In this document: piece by piece, positions 5,688 through 57,670 of the stretch
Layout: every line of letters begins with the position of its first letter
Position numbering within the stretch: the stretch's first letter is position 1
Source: Pseudopyrenochaeta lycopersici
Lineage: Eukaryota > Ascomycota > Dothideomycetes > Pleosporales > Pseudopyrenochaetaceae
Length of the DNA: 64,000 bases
Direction: 5' to 3'
Assembly (NCBI GenBank): GCA_003313425.1
Contig: NHZP01000020.1
Coordinates: 186,001 to 250,000 of the forward strand
The notes under the pieces: generated by a model
What the model saw: only the letters and a program-made list of their open reading frames with translations
Told to the model about the DNA's origin: nothing
The model's database searches: none
Position numbers and translations under genes: made by a program

Positions 5688-6004
5688 TCAGTTGTCGATA
5701 CACAAATCTTTCAGTGGTTGATCTTTTGGATCTAGGGCTGCATGCTGGCGTTTTCAAAATGATACCTCATTTCATTGTGTTTAGTAGTTTATCCATCAGT
5801 TAGTAAAGTCGGTTCACCGCGAAACACATTCTGCCCTATCATTGGTGAAATAATGCCTCTTACGAAGCTCGTACGTTGCGGCTCTGCGGGACGGCGTGCC
5901 CTGCACCACCGAGCCGTGCCCCGCGAGCAACCGCCACTCAAAAAAGTTTCTACCCCGCCACGACTCGGAAGACCACCAAATCGCATTCCAAACAAACAAA
6001 CAAA
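5688..6004. other. intergenic region between PLB and DPH2
   Basis: 317 bases between two genes in the same direction, holding the PLB 3' end and the DPH2 promoter and leader. The DPH2 frame is open upstream to 5876, but the leader sequence there is not protein-like. No other feature was seen. Confidence 0.5.
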
Positions 6005-7753
6005 ATGGCTGTGTCTGCTCTCGGATCTGCGCCTGTGCTCTCAACGCCCGATACACATATCTTCGAAGACCCTACACCTACCGTAGACCCTTCGAGCCTT
6101 CCCCGTCTTTCAGATGACCAGAGCACACTCACATACGAGATCGAACGGACAGTCAAGGAAATTAGGGAAGGAAGATGGAAAAGGATAGCTTTGCAGTTTC
6201 CGGACCACATGCTCACGGATGCGCCGAAGGTATATGAGCAGTTAAGTCGGGGGCTAGGAAAGGCGAGGAAAGCACAGCACGGTGACCAGAAGAGTAGCCC
6301 GTCAAATGGGATGACAGCACAGGAAGACCTGAGCGCAAATCTGGAAACAATAGCGATACGGGAGGAAAACAAAACAGAAGAAAGGTTGTTCATATTGGGA
6401 GACACATCATACGGTGCATGTTGCGTGGACGAGGTTGCGGCAGAGCACGTTGATGCAGATGTTGTTGTGCATTATGGGCGGTCATGCCTGTCACCCCCCT
6501 CGAGGTTACCCGTAATATATGTCTTCACAGAACAACCGCTAGATCTGGATCCAGTGGTGTCCACATTCAAAGAAACATATCCGGACAAAGGGGTCAAGGT
6601 GATCTTGATGGCAGATATCCCCTACTCGCACCTCATCGCTCCACTCCACGCACGCCTCCAGGGCGAAGACTATACCAACATCTACGCTACAGAAATTGTT
6701 CACAACCCCTCTTCGCTCTTACCAAATCGAACCATACCGCCTGAAGCCGACGAAGAGAAGACCCTGCTTGCTGACTACGCCTTATTCCATATCTCTGACC
6801 CACCAACCGCCCTCTTACTCACGCTCTCCTCTCGCGTTGCCTCAATACACATCTATCCAACGTCTGCCTTCACCTCCACGCCTTCCGCTTCTCTTGCCTC
6901 CACCGCCCAATCCCTCCGCCGACGCTACGCACTCTTGACTTCGCTCTCCACAACGCCTATCTATGGCATCCTCATCAATACGCTCTCTGTGAAGAATTAC
7001 ATGCACATTCTATCGCACGTGCAGCGCCAAATCACCGCTGCGGGTAAAAAGTACTACACCTTCGTTGTAGGCAAGGTGAATGCAGCCAAAGTTGCGAATT
7101 TCAGTGAGGTCGGCGGCTGGGTCGTGATAGGCTGTTGGGAGAGCAGTTTGATCGAGAGCAGAGAGTTTTGGCGGCCGATGATTACGCCATGGGAGCTGAG
7201 GGTGGCGCTCATGGGCGACGAGGAGAGGGTGTGGACAGGCGCATGGGAAGCGGATTTTGAGACTGTGCTGAGAGAAAAGAAGGATGAGCAGGTTGGAGAG
7301 AAGGAGAGTGGTGCACAGTCAGAGCAGCGGCAACAGGTTGAAGGGCAGGATGATTCGAATGGCGATGCAGAGGGTGAATATGACTCTGATGAAGAATCAG
7401 CCCCTCCTGAATTCGATCTTAGAACTGGCCGCTACGTCTCGCATTCTCGACCCATGCGCTCCGCGACACCCAAAGAGCCATCAACGGTTCAAAATGCACA
7501 GAAAAGTCCTGAGAGTACGGTTCTGACGAAGCGAGCGAATGGTGACATAGCAGCGGTTGGAGGTGTGGCCTCCCCTGGTGCTGAGTATCTGCGCTCGCAA
7601 AGAACATGGCAGGGCCTAGGTAGCGACTATCGGAACGAGGAAGAAGAAGAAGACGGGCATCCGAGTGTAAACAGCCATGCAGCTAAGATGGAAGAAGGCA
7701 GGAGTGGGATAGCAAGGGGTTACGTTGTTGGCGGGGAAGAAAAAAGACATTAA
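6005..7753 (+). CDS. DPH2: diphthamide biosynthesis protein 2 (DPH2)
   Basis: DPH2 partners DPH1 in the radical-SAM type [4Fe-4S] enzyme that starts diphthamide formation on the target His of elongation factor 2 in the cytosol. The gene has a single exon and encodes 582 residues. Family signatures are RIALQFPDHMLTDAPKVYE near the N-terminus, then LGDTSYGACCVDEVAAEH, VHYGRSCLSP and VIGCWESSLIESREFW. The candidate cluster ligands are Cys139 (or Cys140), Cys161 and Cys377; the 22-residue spacing between the first two is the spacing of the yeast protein. The ATG at 6005 follows an A-rich leader (ACAAACAAACAAA) and begins the conserved part. Upstream in-frame codons back to 5876 look untranslated. 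The last 150 residues are acidic and low in complexity, as in other fungal DPH2 proteins. Confidence 0.93.
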   Translation: MAVSALGSAPVLSTPDTHIFEDPTPTVDPSSLPRLSDDQSTLTYEIERTVKEIREGRWKRIALQFPDHMLTDAPKVYEQLSRGLGKARKAQHGDQKSSPSNGMTAQEDLSANLETIAIREENKTEERLFILGDTSYGACCVDEVAAEHVDADVVVHYGRSCLSPPSRLPVIYVFTEQPLDLDPVVSTFKETYPDKGVKVILMADIPYSHLIAPLHARLQGEDYTNIYATEIVHNPSSLLPNRTIPPEADEEKTLLADYALFHISDPPTALLLTLSSRVASIHIYPTSAFTSTPSASLASTAQSLRRRYALLTSLSTTPIYGILINTLSVKNYMHILSHVQRQITAAGKKYYTFVVGKVNAAKVANFSEVGGWVVIGCWESSLIESREFWRPMITPWELRVALMGDEERVWTGAWEADFETVLREKKDEQVGEKESGAQSEQRQQVEGQDDSNGDAEGEYDSDEESAPPEFDLRTGRYVSHSRPMRSATPKEPSTVQNAQKSPESTVLTKRANGDIAAVGGVASPGAEYLRSQRTWQGLGSDYRNEEEEEDGHPSVNSHAAKMEEGRSGIARGYVVGGEEKRH

Positions 7754-26499: not shown

Positions 26500-29434
26500 T
26501 TACCAAATCCTCTTCGCAACCATAGTATACCGGCTCACATGCCCAACACTCGTACCCTTCTCCCTCTCCTGTTCCTCTTTTCTCTTTCCCTTTTCGTCCC
26601 TTTCCCTCAATCTCCGAAAACTGTCCGGATCATCGTCATAGATTGTCCTCCTCTTTTCCTCGTCTACATCCACAACACCCCATCCTCCAATCCTCTTCCC
26701 ACCCGTCTCGACACTCATCATCTCCCGCTCTTTCATACCATGATATCGCTTTCGACTCACACTCAAGAGGAACATGCCGAGAATTAGCTTAAAGGCAAGA
26801 AACACGAGGTAGCCAACTAGGAAGACGATGAACATGGCAGAACCAGCGATTAAGTCGTCGAGCGTCCAAGAGGAGATGTGATACCAGGCTTGAGAAGGAA
26901 CACCGGCACCAAAGGAAGAGCGTCCAAGGGCACGACGAAAGACTTGGTCAATATGTGCGAAGGCGGCGGTTGTGGCGGGCGAAGATGTCGCGTCGGAGGT
27001 CAGTGATGTAGACATGGTGGGTAAAGGAGGTGGCATGTGCATGGCAATGAACATATGGTAGGTCTGAATAGCAGCACGGATGAAGAGGCAAGAGAGTGGT
27101 ATCACCGGCAGTCCCAAGCGCCTTGTTAGATTTGGGTCGACGAAGGCCTTTTTGAGGTTAGTGCTTTTGATAGAGTAATGGAACGGCAGGCCTTACATTA
27201 GAGTAGTAGTCTTTCGCCAGTACGTCGAAGAATTTACTATACACTTCTGGCTTGTATTGGTTAAATTTGGTAATATATGCGTGTTTCAGCCAGTCCACGA
27301 ACATCTCGCTTCCAATTACCAGAAGGAACGGATTGAGCACCTGAGCGATGTATTTCGGGAATATGGTGAAGCTCATCGGTATAATGTTTGAAGCTGTGAA
27401 GGCGGTCGCTGTGGTGGCATTACTATTCCCAGTAAACATTGCTGTCCACGATGTGTCGCTGCTTCGAATACTGAGGCCACCGACTTCTACGACATTGCGC
27501 ATGGCAATAATGAGAAGCATGAGCCACAGCTGGAAGCGTTCAACGACATCTGCGCATGTGATCTGGAACAAATTCTCTTTCTCAAATTTCTTGAACACGG
27601 TGCCCTTGATTTCGACGAATTGATTTGACATCAAAAGCGTCAGTAGCGCATTAGAATAGGAGTTGACTGCGACGTTGAGCGTAATGACCTGGTAGAACAA
27701 GGCAGTAGCATGTGCAACAGTGTACACAAGAGCTAGGGCGAACATGCCGAATGGACGGAGGACCTTACTTCGGCCATCAGGGTTTCGATCGAGTGTCTCA
27801 CGCGAGAACAAACATTCCAAAACATCTTGACCGACGGCTGAGAGCAAACGGTCGCAGACTTCTAGAACATTGTAGATGACGTAAAGTTTGATCGCTGACT
27901 GACCGCGAATACCGTGATACATGCGACTCGCATCGAACCGCATTAGTACGAAACAGCTTGAGATGACCAACAACCCTTTAAGGATGTCAGCTTTGTGGCT
28001 CGGGAGAAGCGTAGATGGCGTGGACTTTGTCCGGCGATGACGAAAGCGCGAGTTCCGCGTACGCCGTGGCTTTGGATCTTTCAGATCTGGAAATTTAAAG
28101 CTGGTCGACATCTGATGATTCTGCCTCGCCACCATACTGGCTGTTTGGACAATGGAGGAAGATGGCTTCCGCGATACTGAGGGTGGCTCCTCATCCGCCG
28201 GTGTCGGCAAGGGAGTCGGTGTTTCACTCTGATTTCTTCGCTGCCACAGTCGAGGGAGGCCGTAATAAACATAGGCCCAAAGGTCACGAAACTCCTTCAC
28301 GATGACTGAGCCCCACCATTTGACCAAGATAGCAATGGCAAGCAAGAAGCGAAGGGGCAGAATCGTCAAAACATGCATCCAAGCATCCAGACAGGCAAGA
28401 GCACCGAAGCCCAAGATACCCTCAATCTTGAGCGGTATCTTCAAGAAGTTGAGCAGCCGCTCGTACTTGAGTTGAGATGACTCGTAAGGGAAGTCGGTCG
28501 AGGCAGGTTGGTAGATGTACAGCGGAGAAGGGCGGCTCGCAGACAACTCGAGTGATAGGAAGGTTGGCATTGACAGTGGCGGCAGGGGTAGGGCCACTGG
28601 AGAAGCTGCGTCTCGCATATCACGGCCTTCCTTGTGTCTATCGTGCTGTAGATTCTTGGGCAGCCCGTCCTTGTGATCCAGAGTGAGCGGCGGAGGGACG
28701 TGTCGGCTGGACCTCCTCTCGTCTCCATCATGTGCTTGTGTATGCGCCCTTGATCTTGACCTCGATGTTGACGTCTTTCTCCGGACTAACGATGGGGTAG
28801 TGACCGATCTCGAATTCAACAATGGCCGGCCATGTCGCAGTTCAGTTGCAGGTGTTTTGACAAGGACAACCTCCTTTTCCTGGACGGCCTCGAGGTTCTT
28901 TAGGCCTTTCGGCCATTGATCTTCACTCTTCACACCGTTCAGTTCTATAGGCCGTTCCAATACTACGCCCAGGACCCTGTTGCTCTCCTGCCCATCCGTC
29001 TCCACGCCAGGTGTCTCATGTTCCAGTGCATCTTCGAGGATAGGAGTCGCTGCTCGAAGAGGCAGGCTTGCAGGCTCGCTTGTCAATTCCTGAATCTGCC
29101 TAGGACTGAGCTTGAGGATCTTCTCGTGGTCGGAGACGCTGCTCTTCCTCCTCACATCGCCGGGTCGCTTGATGGGCCTGATCTTCTCGCTCGTGTCCGA
29201 CAATATCGCCTCTTCATATATGCTGGTCTGCCTGCTAGTAGAGCTGACGCTGAGCGTACCGTTCGATTCCGCTTTGTAGACATTCGTTATGTTCTGCAGC
29301 GGCCCTTCGTTCTTCGCTTCCAGGTTGCGGCTCCCCAGGAAAACCACATCGTCCGGTTCTGGCGTAGGGTATGGCGGAGAGAACTGCTCTACCGTGTGTG
29401 CTTCACCGTTTGTCCGTGTATCTGCCCCGTTCAT
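26500..29434 (-). CDS. TAPT1/DUF747 family membrane protein (Emp65-like)
   Basis: Multi-pass membrane protein of the TAPT1 family, linked in yeast and animals to the ER or early secretory pathway. Minus-strand exons are 29434-27197 and 27147-26500, joined across a 49-nt intron at a codon boundary (KDYYSN to AFVDPNLTRRLG). The N-terminal 270 residues are disordered and Ser/Arg-rich. The family domain starts near EGILGFGALACLDAWMH and continues with hydrophobic segments including ILPLRFLLAIAILVKWW, DILKGLLVISSCFVLMRFD and RGQSAIKLYVIYNVLEV. Later come CLFSRETL, KFEKENLFQITCADVVERF and VDWLKHAYITKFN. The last exon adds more membrane helices and a charged tail. The ATG at 29434 is preferred; an in-frame ATG at 29578 adds 48 basic residues with no domain. 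Confidence 0.9.
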
Positions 29435-53395: not shown

Positions 53396-55765
53396 ATGTA
53401 CATGTCTCGCGTCCGCAAGAAACGCTCCAAGCACAGAATTCCAGAACCTACAAACAATGCTGACCTCCAGACTCCTCTACACCTCGCCGATCTCGAAACA
53501 CCAGATTCGGTTTCCTCGCTCACATGTTCACCGAGCGACCTCACGCCTCCAGTGGCTGCACTGCGAAACATCTCATTAACATCGCCGAGCGACCCTTTGT
53601 GCGCAGAAATAACAGCTATGAAGCCTTTTGACGACACTGTTAACTACGTACACTTTGCGCCCTTCCCGTCGGACATTCCGCCGCCCGACCTCCATCGAGC
53701 TCAAGTTCAAGGTGAGACTCCGCGCTATAGCCGGACTGAAGCGTTGAAGGGCTTCAGCCGTACATTCAGCGCAAGTAAGAAACTTCAGCAGATGATGGGG
53801 TTGCAGGATCCGGAGCCATTTGTCACGCCGCCGCCGATACCGAAGAATCTAGAGCTAGCTTTCGCCGACGAAATGCAAGAGTGCGGAATCGATTATAAGA
53901 GAAATGAGATGACGCCAGGAGACAAGCGGAGTGGAGCTGCTGGAATGCGAAGGAAGTCGGAGAAGTCGAAGCTGCCAGACATTAGCGAGGAGATGGAGAG
54001 TCCTAGTAAGACTACCTTCATGTATGCTGAGAACATCGGTACTTCATCAAGTGAAGGACTCACTAGTACTCCTTCGATTTGGCCATCTAACGCTCAAGCT
54101 ACAGCTGCTCCGTATACAATTCGAGCTTCCACATCTTATGAAAGGGACATGGGCAATGACGTCGAACGTGGAGACGTTACCCTAGGTCACGACGGCCCTT
54201 ATGCTGAATATTTCGGTTCCAGTGTAGCTCTCCCAGAGAGTCAGTCGTTCCGTCCTGGCAGGCCCACAGACGCACCTCACTCTTTCCCTGTCCCAAATTC
54301 CGGAAGAGCGACCAGTTCTGCATATTACGATTCGTTAACCCGGGCTATCAGTATTGGCGGTGAGTATGGCTGCATTGGTGCTGGCTACCGACCTCCTCAA
54401 CGGTCTACAAGCTTATTCGCTCTAACAAGGAGCAGTCTTGATAGTGTACCGACTGAGGCACCCGAAGCTTGCAACAATCACGATTTCCAGTTTCTATCTT
54501 CTGAGCACGGCAACGCGCTGCGGCGATCAAGTTCCACCCCTGTTGTCCTCTTCCCATCTCCGCGCGTGGAACAACCACCTCGCGGCTTTGTCCAGACAAA
54601 TGCTGAGCTCCCTCCTACTGGGATAGTTTCTGGTGCCCATGTTCCTAGTGGACCATTCAACACGCGAGTTGAGTTGCCAGAAGGGCTTTTCAGTCGCCCT
54701 CGTATTCCGAATATTCCTCAAATCAAGGTTCAACCACCATCACCAAAGAAGATGCCAGTGTCGAAGAAGCGAGCAGCTTCCTCGTCATCACAGGAGATGT
54801 CCGGTCCCCCCCTCACCCGCACTCGTGAAGGAAATAATACGGGTCTTCCCATCCTACCTATTGCATCGGAGGCGCTATGGAAGTTCCACTTCCCAGGAAA
54901 CACACCTGCGCTGTTGACGACCCTACTGACCTGGTCTTACACGATGCAATCCATATACAATAGCTCTCCCAATCCAAAGGCTTTCTCGTACAATGTCTCA
55001 TTTCCGTGGCCTATGAAACCACCAGTCTACCAGCAGCTCATCTCTGTCAGTTTCTACGACACAAGTGTTACCCCTCACAAAGAGATCCGTTTCCTCGGGC
55101 CCGGCGATGTTGCAGAAATTGTCTATGGTGAGGTTGACACATTCAGAAGCGAAGAAGACTCGGAGGCTTTTCAAGAGCAGCAGAAGCATAACTGCAAGAT
55201 TGAAGCTATGAGGAAGGCGCTGGGACTTGGAACTAGCCACCAGAAAGAGAGCCGATATATGGCTTCTCATCATCGCGCAGCAACAGGCGAGGGAAGATGG
55301 GCATACATACTCATCAAAGCTCATGAGAGTACTAACGTGGAAACACCACCACACCTAATGATTGCTTTTCACATCTCCGCTGTCACCGACGAGTCGATGT
55401 GTTTGCACACGATCCTCCCCGACGACTATTTCGCACCGTCATCATTGTCGTCCCGACCACCGCCTAGTCCACCACTAAAGCGCTTCAGCTCTCTCCAAAA
55501 CATCTTCAGCGCGTCACGCAATCCGCTTCGTCTACATCAAGCCCTCCGTTCAGCAAGCAGTTCGGAGTTACCCCGAGTCAATGTGATCGACACAGCGCCG
55601 CAAGAAGGTGCAATCACGTTGCAGCGTACGGTGTTGAAGATGGAGAAGGCAGGTACAATTCCGCTGATTGAGGGGCATAGGGTAGATGTGGGTGCATTCA
55701 GAGGGTGGCTGGATGCTGCGGCTAGGGGAAGCGGGAAGATAATGATGTGGAAGGAGAGGGAATAA
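53396..55765 (+). CDS. conserved-looking hypothetical protein with disordered N-terminus
   Basis: Single exon, 789 residues. I do not recognise a named family. The N-terminal 480 residues are Ser/Pro-rich and disordered. An ordered C-terminal region of about 250 residues starts near ALWKFHFPGNTPALL and includes LLTWSYTMQSIYNSSPNPKA, SFPWPMKPPVYQQLISVSFY and ISAVTDESMCLHTILPDDYF. The alternation of strands and helices suggests a folded domain. It has no signal peptide or membrane segment; a cytosolic or cortical protein is possible. Basic start residues (RVRKKRSKHR) could act as a localisation signal. An ATG at codon 3 (MSRVRK) is an alternative start. The function is unknown. Confidence 0.75.
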   Translation: MYMSRVRKKRSKHRIPEPTNNADLQTPLHLADLETPDSVSSLTCSPSDLTPPVAALRNISLTSPSDPLCAEITAMKPFDDTVNYVHFAPFPSDIPPPDLHRAQVQGETPRYSRTEALKGFSRTFSASKKLQQMMGLQDPEPFVTPPPIPKNLELAFADEMQECGIDYKRNEMTPGDKRSGAAGMRRKSEKSKLPDISEEMESPSKTTFMYAENIGTSSSEGLTSTPSIWPSNAQATAAPYTIRASTSYERDMGNDVERGDVTLGHDGPYAEYFGSSVALPESQSFRPGRPTDAPHSFPVPNSGRATSSAYYDSLTRAISIGGEYGCIGAGYRPPQRSTSLFALTRSSLDSVPTEAPEACNNHDFQFLSSEHGNALRRSSSTPVVLFPSPRVEQPPRGFVQTNAELPPTGIVSGAHVPSGPFNTRVELPEGLFSRPRIPNIPQIKVQPPSPKKMPVSKKRAASSSSQEMSGPPLTRTREGNNTGLPILPIASEALWKFHFPGNTPALLTTLLTWSYTMQSIYNSSPNPKAFSYNVSFPWPMKPPVYQQLISVSFYDTSVTPHKEIRFLGPGDVAEIVYGEVDTFRSEEDSEAFQEQQKHNCKIEAMRKALGLGTSHQKESRYMASHHRAATGEGRWAYILIKAHESTNVETPPHLMIAFHISAVTDESMCLHTILPDDYFAPSSLSSRPPPSPPLKRFSSLQNIFSASRNPLRLHQALRSASSSELPRVNVIDTAPQEGAITLQRTVLKMEKAGTIPLIEGHRVDVGAFRGWLDAAARGSGKIMMWKERE

Positions 55766-57500: not shown

Positions 57501-57536
57501 GGCCTGATGGTCTAGTGGTATGATTCCTGCTTTGGG

Positions 57537-57567
57537 ACATCTTGGTTTTCCAAGAACATGCCTATTC
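57537..57567 (+). other. canonical tRNA intron (between positions 37 and 38)
   Basis: 31-nt insert starting just after G37 of the anticodon loop, the standard site for nuclear tRNA introns cut by the tRNA splicing endonuclease. It can form a hairpin CTTGG-TTTT-CCAAG (57541-57554). The loop is a TTTT run, which in some systems is a weak Pol III stop. Confidence 0.82.
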
Positions 57568-57584
57568 TGCAGGAGGCCCCGGGT

Positions 57585-57637
57585 GTAAGTTCACCCACAA
57601 TGGTTCGATAACGAACGTCTTTCTAACAGGCGCACAG
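57585..57637 (+). other. GT-AG spliceosomal-like intron inside the tRNA T-loop (between 54 and 55)
   Basis: 53-nt insert with a 5' GTAAGT, a CTAAC branch point (57623-57627) ten bases before a 3' CACAG. It looks the same as the protein-gene introns of this window in length and signals. Exact removal joins T57584 to T57638 and restores the T-loop TTCGAAT between perfect CCGGG/CCCGG stems. Inside are a B-box-like GGTTCGAT (57602-57609) and a perfect hairpin GTTCG-ATAA-CGAAC (57603-57616). GGGTG/CACCC (57581-57596) can pair across the 5' junction. I see no bulge-helix-bulge at the borders, so a tRNA-endonuclease route looks less likely, though it cannot be excluded by eye. Confidence 0.78.
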
Positions 57638-57664
57638 TCGAATCCCGGTCAGGCCCCATCTTTC

Positions 57665-57670
57665 TTTTTT
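57665..57670 (+). terminator. RNA polymerase III terminator
   Basis: A run of six T, nine bases after the tRNA 3' end, followed by a second run of six T at 57674-57679. This is the normal termination signal for a Pol III tRNA gene and suggests the locus is a working Pol III unit. Confidence 0.8.

Follow-up and report, generated by a model that had tools for sequence, protein, structure and literature searches.

The window, by which we mean the whole 64-kb stretch of DNA that was analysed, contains a tRNA-Pro(UGG) gene that is interrupted at two positions (Table 1), and direct reading of its letters gives the first exon as GGCCTGATGGTCTAGTGGTATGATTCCTGCTTTGGG. The original prediction, made from the letters alone, had described a 37/38 intron together with a second, 53-nt insert lying exactly between T54 and T55, with GTAAGT at its start, a CTAAC ten bases from its end and CACAG at its close. 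All of these elements were read in the window; the 37/38 intron measures 31 nt, the insert contains one CTAAC only, and its boundary fits a single register. The accompanying claim that exact removal restores the T loop and a 5-bp T stem and leaves the other stems intact was borne out by a scripted count on the gene minus both introns, which gave 7/7 acceptor pairs, 5/5 anticodon-stem pairs and 5/5 T-stem pairs (D stem unscored), with TTCGAAT as the T loop and TGG as the anticodon. ARAGORN reported no tRNA gene in the window and Rfam no match at its gathering cut-off, and the gene was also missed by Rfam at E values up to 0.05.

Table 1. Features of the window gene tRNA-Pro(UGG), a predicted protein-gene intron of the window, and inserts in other tRNA genes of the same genome. 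Window coordinates are given for the first features, contigs for the inserts; insert positions in tRNA numbering were assigned by eye.
Feature	Location	Strand	Basis or remark
tRNA-Pro(UGG) exon 1 (nt 1-37)	57501..57536	+	acceptor 5' strand, D arm, anticodon TGG; direct reading, stem parse
37/38 intron, 31 nt, predicted tRNA splicing endonuclease substrate	57537..57567	+	position, restored anticodon stem 5/5
tRNA-Pro exon 2, nt 38 to T54	57568..57584	+	script parse
53-nt GT-AG insert at T54/T55, predicted spliceosomal intron	57585..57637	+	single register
GTAAGT, 5' splice-site-like	57585..57590	+	script parse of insert
Candidate B-box-like motif GGTTCGATAAC	57602..57612	+	within insert; 1 mismatch vs GGTTCGANNCC
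CTAAC, branch-point-like	57623..57627	+	ends 10 nt from insert 3' end; script parse of insert
CACAG, 3' splice-site-like	57633..57637	+	script parse of insert
tRNA-Pro exon 3, T55 to nt 72	57638..57655	+	C73 discriminator at 57656
Six-T run, Pol III terminator-like	57665..57670	+	direct reading, downstream of gene
DUF747 gene, predicted intron, 49 nt	27148..27196	-	GTAAGG; CTAAC nine bases before AG
Pro(CGG), 51-nt insert at 10/11	C12		T-arm pattern
Pro(AGG), 51-nt insert at 11/12 and 55-nt insert at 26/27	C15		T-arm pattern
Ala(CGC), 51-nt insert at 26/27	C8		D-arm pattern
Thr(UGU), 58-nt insert at about 21/22	C10		long-gap A-box/B-box pattern
Arg(ACG), 57-nt insert at 55/56	C16		long-gap A-box/B-box pattern
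Trp(CCA), 55-nt insert at 53/54	C16		long-gap A-box/B-box pattern
Gln(CUG), 55-nt insert at 19/20	C1		TAGT version of the pattern

The proteins encoded in the window are closest to those of Pleosporales. The diphthamide-synthesis protein at 5876-7753 has a best match of 83% identity, and is 81% identical to its counterpart in Pyrenochaeta sp. MPI-SDFR-AT-0127 and 75% identical to those of two Neocucurbitaria; a second protein agrees with this placement.

The assembly of the same genome (62,731,430 bases in 188 contigs) was searched for further interrupted tRNA genes, revealing eight more GT-AG inserts in seven other tRNA genes and thus at least nine inserts in eight genes. Eight of these nine inserts were found through tRNA-motif patterns that contain no splice signal, and every insert outside 37/38 that surfaced in this way (8/8, in seven genes, by eye) was of the GT-AG type, as is that of the window gene. 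The D-arm pattern, with up to two mismatches, identified six places, including the window gene, two uninterrupted Pro(AGG) genes and the Ala(CGC) gene on C8; one of the six was not a tRNA by eye. The T-arm pattern identified 13 places, among them Pro(CGG) and a third Pro(AGG). The long-gap A-box/B-box pattern returned 27 rows against 14 in a reversed control, and six of the 27 corresponded by eye to five tRNA genes, of which three carry a GT-AG insert and the other two a long 37/38 intron. Its TAGT version gave five rows, one of them a tRNA, with 41 in the control, and the TAGC version gave seven matches, one of them a tRNA with a long 37/38 intron. No tRNA was recognised from the first 80 letters of each of the 21 matches to the TGGC version or the 18 to the TGGT version. 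An ordinary-gap A-box/B-box pattern returned 27 rows comprising 14 tRNA genes, none of which, by eye, has an insert outside 37/38. The survey is a sample of about 59 nuclear tRNA genes that surfaced, by reading, and not a census; 36 of them came from 61 matches of one scan, in which 63 of 2106 candidates were scored, and the rest from the patterns. Inserts located between the A box and the B box were more likely to surface in these searches.

The two GT-AG inserts of the Pro(AGG) gene on C15 enclose an exon of 14 nt, and with its 37/38 intron this gene carries three introns. A 37/38 intron, 10-31 nt long, is likewise present in all eight interrupted genes. Once the inserts and 37/38 introns are removed, the cloverleaf is complete in all eight genes at the acceptor stem (7/7) and the T stem (5/5), the D stem being unscored. 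The anticodon stem is paired 5/5 in six of the eight. It is 4/5 in Trp, as it is in the uninterrupted Trp copy, and 4/5 by script in Gln, where shifting the 37/38 boundary by one base gives 5/5 by eye. With the 37/38 intron cut as chosen here, both Trp genes have A facing C at 31-39 of the anticodon stem. Position 21 of a tRNA is usually A; in the spliced Thr(UGU) it would be C, a point against the spliceosomal reading.

The nine inserts (53, 51, 51, 55, 51, 58, 57, 55 and 55 nt) share a common anatomy. All begin with GT and end with AG, and the features that define a U2-type intron recur throughout: an extended donor (GTAAG in six, as GTAAGT in three, GTAAGC in two and GTAAGA in one; GTGAGT in two; GTACGT in one) and a CTAAN branch-like motif (CTAAC in seven, CTAAT and CTAAG in one each) that in 9/9 stops 9-11 nt short of the insert's last base. 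The boundary register is unique in five of the nine inserts and ambiguous by one base in four. The original prediction had judged a chance coincidence of such signals unlikely, and the combination of GT, AG and CTAAN at 8-12 nt, present in 9/9 inserts, was obtained in 11 of 199,998 shuffled inserts.

This anatomy was compared with that of protein-gene introns in the window, of which a scan restricted to lengths of 43-74 nt and a branch motif at 6-15 nt predicted eight, against none in the reversed control. These introns are 47-53 nt long, with one of 73 nt, and their branch motif, at 6-13 nt from the end, is CTAAC in four of the eight and CTGAC or CTGAT in the other four. One of the eight, 54360-54432, lies within a frame that is open without splicing and may be false. 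The predicted DUF747 intron is a good model, and the clearest one locally, for the ordinary introns of this genome. At a median of 55 nt against 49 nt, the tRNA inserts slightly exceed the predicted protein introns of the window in length (p 0.036). A weaker first scan for protein introns, with six matches against three in its control, was replaced by the one described here. A motif-only scan of 264 kb, including the tRNA loci, gave 164 matches against 239 in its reversed control, and its only signal in the expected direction lay in its 50-60 nt and 9-10 nt peaks.

Taken together, these observations indicate that the insert of the window gene is very probably a U2-type spliceosomal intron in a Pol III tRNA gene, excised by the spliceosome. 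Spliceosomal excision is favoured because the nine inserts share spliceosomal signals, spaced much as they are in the genome's own introns, and the spliceosomal-type reading first proposed for the window insert alone gains strong support from the sequence-level recurrence of such inserts, eight more in seven other tRNA genes. The 53-nt insert would be removed by the spliceosome from what is likely a Pol III precursor, and the 37/38 intron by the tRNA splicing endonuclease. The spliceosome would act before the endonuclease, RNase P and RNase Z, since these three enzymes read the folded tRNA body, which the T-loop insert would disturb. Pol III transcription, spliceosomal excision and this order of processing are steps that we infer from the sequence. 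When the unspliced strand of Pro(UGG) is folded at minimum energy, the donor lies inside a GGGTG/CACCC hairpin, a modelled structure that could be an obstacle to easy access by U1.

Extra introns outside 37/38 are known from other tRNA genes, where a different enzyme removes them. In archaea, nucleomorphs and Cyanidioschyzon merolae, they are described in the D, anticodon and T arms, with up to three per gene (PMC4090602, PMC9602550). The non-canonical introns of archaea and the red alga are of the bulge-helix-bulge (BHB) type, and the nucleomorph tRNA genes are reported to carry short inserts of unknown splicing, comparable inserts elsewhere being suspected pseudogenes (PMC4090602, PMC8450103, PMC4033280). 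The inserts described here could be ectopic introns of the archaeal or red-algal type, cut by the tRNA endonuclease at a BHB. This is a reading to which positions lend some weight: archaeal BHB introns are described at 53/54, 56/57, 25/26 and elsewhere, and non-canonical introns are listed for nucleomorph and Cyanidioschyzon tRNA genes (PMC4090602). Yet the 4-bp central helix of a BHB, sought in strict register, formed in none of the nine inserts, the best reaching two of four pairs; in the opposite orientation, three of four pairs formed in two of eight inserts (Gln being outside the eight) and four of four in none. Moreover, BHB introns need neither GT, AG nor CTAAC, whereas all nine inserts have GT, AG and CTAAN. 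Unlike the endonuclease-removed introns of archaea, nucleomorphs and Cyanidioschyzon, which are BHB-type where known, the present inserts thus fail the strict form while carrying splice and branch signals. We rejected strict BHB introns on the absence of the central helix in 9/9, a comparison that concerns the strict form and leaves relaxed motifs outside it, and consider endonuclease cleavage of these inserts very improbable.

A second question is whether the interrupted copies are functional at all. They could be dead tRNA genes with an intron-like insertion, other genes supplying the cell; uninterrupted copies do exist for Arg(ACG), Trp, Ala(CGC), whose paralogue on C3 is without the insert, and Pro(AGG), and short insertions in the D and T arms of eukaryotic tRNA genes are viewed mostly as pseudogenes in PMC4090602. 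The exons argue in the other direction. Compared with their uninterrupted paralogues, the exons differ at 0/71 positions in Pro(AGG), 0/71 in Ala, 0/71 in Arg and 1/71 in Trp (G57 to A), which amounts to one difference in 284 positions over the four pairs. In three of these pairs the 37/38 introns have diverged, with 10 differences in 41 aligned positions, whereas the exons beside them show 1 in 213 (Fisher p 4e-8; the Ala intron pair was unalignable and left out, and a single gap in the Pro alignment was disregarded). This paralogue test covered Pro(AGG), Ala, Arg and Trp; for Pro(UGG), Pro(CGG), Thr and Gln, of which no uninterrupted copy surfaced, the assessment used stem pairing alone. Decay at the locus, named in the original prediction as an outcome that would speak against it, was looked for and none was found. 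In addition, the assembly yielded no intact copy of Pro(UGG) or of Pro(CGG) free of an insert. Tested as an explanation, tRNA pseudogenes were rejected on the absence of exon decay in the four pairs, and we regard dead copies as highly unlikely.

The proline genes bear most directly on whether splicing would be required. Five tRNA-Pro genes were found, three with AGG, one with UGG and one with CGG, and both the UGG and the CGG genes are interrupted. A 14-nt D-arm pattern allowing one mismatch identified 20 places. The five exact matches are the five Pro genes; of the remainder, two are Ala genes and 13 lie elsewhere. Inspection by eye of 12 of these 13 revealed no tRNA-Pro, and the thirteenth, C3:846400, is without a match to the T-arm pattern. 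That pattern is exact in four of the five Pro genes, the fifth being the window gene. A genome search with the window gene gave one match, itself, and no second copy of its insert. As to the other tRNA-Pro(TGG) genes raised in the original prediction, the five Pro genes thus include no uninterrupted copy, and neither the D-arm nor the T-arm pattern yielded an uninterrupted Pro(UGG) or Pro(CGG) in the assembly, a result that depends on assembly completeness, which may fall short. Inosine-34 of Pro(AGG) cannot read CCG, a codon that accounts for 115 of the 526 Pro codons in 12 ORFs of the window. Decoding of CCG should therefore be confined to the Pro(UGG) and Pro(CGG) genes; as the only genes found that should read CCG are interrupted, their inserts must be removed, provided that the assembly lacks no such gene and that none has diverged too far for the patterns.

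Some inserts also fall within internal promoter boxes. The B box is split in Pro(UGG) at 54/55, in Arg at 55/56 and in Trp at 53/54, and two genes, Pro(CGG) and Pro(AGG), have a split A box. All three T-loop inserts contain a B-box-like motif of their own, TGTTCGATACT in Trp and AGTTCGAATCC in Arg besides that of the window gene, and GTTCRA is absent from the six inserts outside the T loop. This count of 3/3 against 0/6 is biased, in that Arg and Trp were found through the motif and the window gene alone is unbiased: the long-gap pattern demanded GTTCGANNC at a distance of 77-107 nt beyond the A box, a requirement that the intronic motif satisfied in Arg and Trp. GTTCRA occurs in 2.5% of shuffled T-loop inserts, so two chance finds would need a large pool of motif-less T-loop inserts. 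Motifs of the quality of that in the window insert number 19 on both strands of the 64 kb, against 13 expected, and 12 of 100 shuffles reach 19. Where the B box is split, the intronic B-box-like motif would take over TFIIIC binding, and part of the promoter would thus lie in sequence that is later discarded; on these sequence grounds we propose the motif as a candidate replacement for the split B box.

The split B box is also what gives some substance to a further alternative, namely that the inserts are spliced only from longer Pol II transcripts running across the loci, with no tRNA made. Pol II transcripts are the usual substrates of spliceosomes, and the B box of the window gene is interrupted by the insert. 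Against this, the insert boundaries restore a tRNA in 8/8 genes, the exons are constrained wherever a paralogue permits the comparison, and each of the three T-loop inserts holds the B-box-like motif; we consider this very improbable, and the least probable of the alternatives. We lean slightly, on balance, towards a wider reading of the main explanation in which the spliceosome is an essential maker of tRNA in this fungus, decoding of CCG needs both splicing machines, since all the genes found that can read this codon are interrupted, and the split B box has been relocated into the intron, with the polymerase recruited by sequence that splicing discards.

The insert of Pro(CGG) on C12, at 10/11, ends in CAG, and CAG|TCTAGTGG re-forms the greater part of an A box where intron meets exon. 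By eye, the closing CAG takes the place of R9-G10, and in the DNA of this gene the A box would be largely reconstituted.

Among the matches listed in searches of the open-access PMC literature, none reported spliceosomal introns in nuclear tRNA genes, which agrees with the original statement that no fungal tRNA with a GT-AG intron was known. Introns of nuclear tRNAs are conventionally assigned to the endonuclease. The tRNAscan-SE 2.0 paper gives a maximum of one intron per eukaryotic tRNA gene (PMC8450103), and a 2026 review states, where it treats the matter, that the spliceosome is not used for tRNA splicing (PMC13149111). The intron type is itself known; as far as our literature search reached, tRNA genes as its home are new. 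The U6 snRNA gene of fission yeast, also a Pol III gene, is interrupted by an mRNA-type intron (PMC10484740, citing Tani and Ohshima 1989, 1991). However, U6 is itself spliceosomal and its intron is thought to derive from reverse splicing near catalytic nucleotides, a link that tRNA does not have, and in the present genome many genes and positions are affected. Ribosomal DNA is a multi-copy Pol I gene. In fungal nuclear rDNA, spliceosomal introns are likewise described in a structural RNA gene, that of 18S (PMC11889510, citing Cubero et al. 2000). Here, in contrast, tRNA genes are concerned, two of them without any uninterrupted copy found.

Introners are copies of one another. Introner-like elements have been described as a source of spliceosomal intron gain in Dothideomycetes, the same fungal class (PMC4457414), whereas the nine tRNA inserts are not mutual copies above control. 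Introner copies were rejected as an origin: beyond the splice signals no similarity between inserts exceeded the control, the best pair among the nine scoring 23 against a control 99th percentile of 23.8. A pattern built from the exons of the window gene had no match in other genome contigs or viral contigs.

If spliced, these genes would allow a direct test of the spliceosome on Pol III tRNA transcripts and on a 14-nt internal exon, would tie splicing to codon decoding, and would document how introns were gained in genes for which the constraint on every base is known. They also bear on annotation: the Rfam tRNA model found one of the eight interrupted genes (Ala) and missed two of six uninterrupted ones, both Pro(AGG), and tRNA gene counts by standard tools can run low in such genomes.

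Two further observations concern the tRNA loci of this assembly. The interrupted Arg(ACG) gene on C16 (676438-676575) is followed on the same strand by a tRNA-Gly(GCC) gene starting at 676591, about 15 nt downstream; the spacer is without a run of four T, and the two genes may therefore form one transcript. Contig C107 (45,414 bp) appears mitochondrial by its tRNA set. Its tRNAs repeat about 32.6 kb apart, suggesting that the mitochondrial genome is close to that size. The contig probably represents a circular molecule read more than once round; for the relative Coniothyrium glycines, a mitochondrial genome of 98,533 bp is given in PMC6221350.
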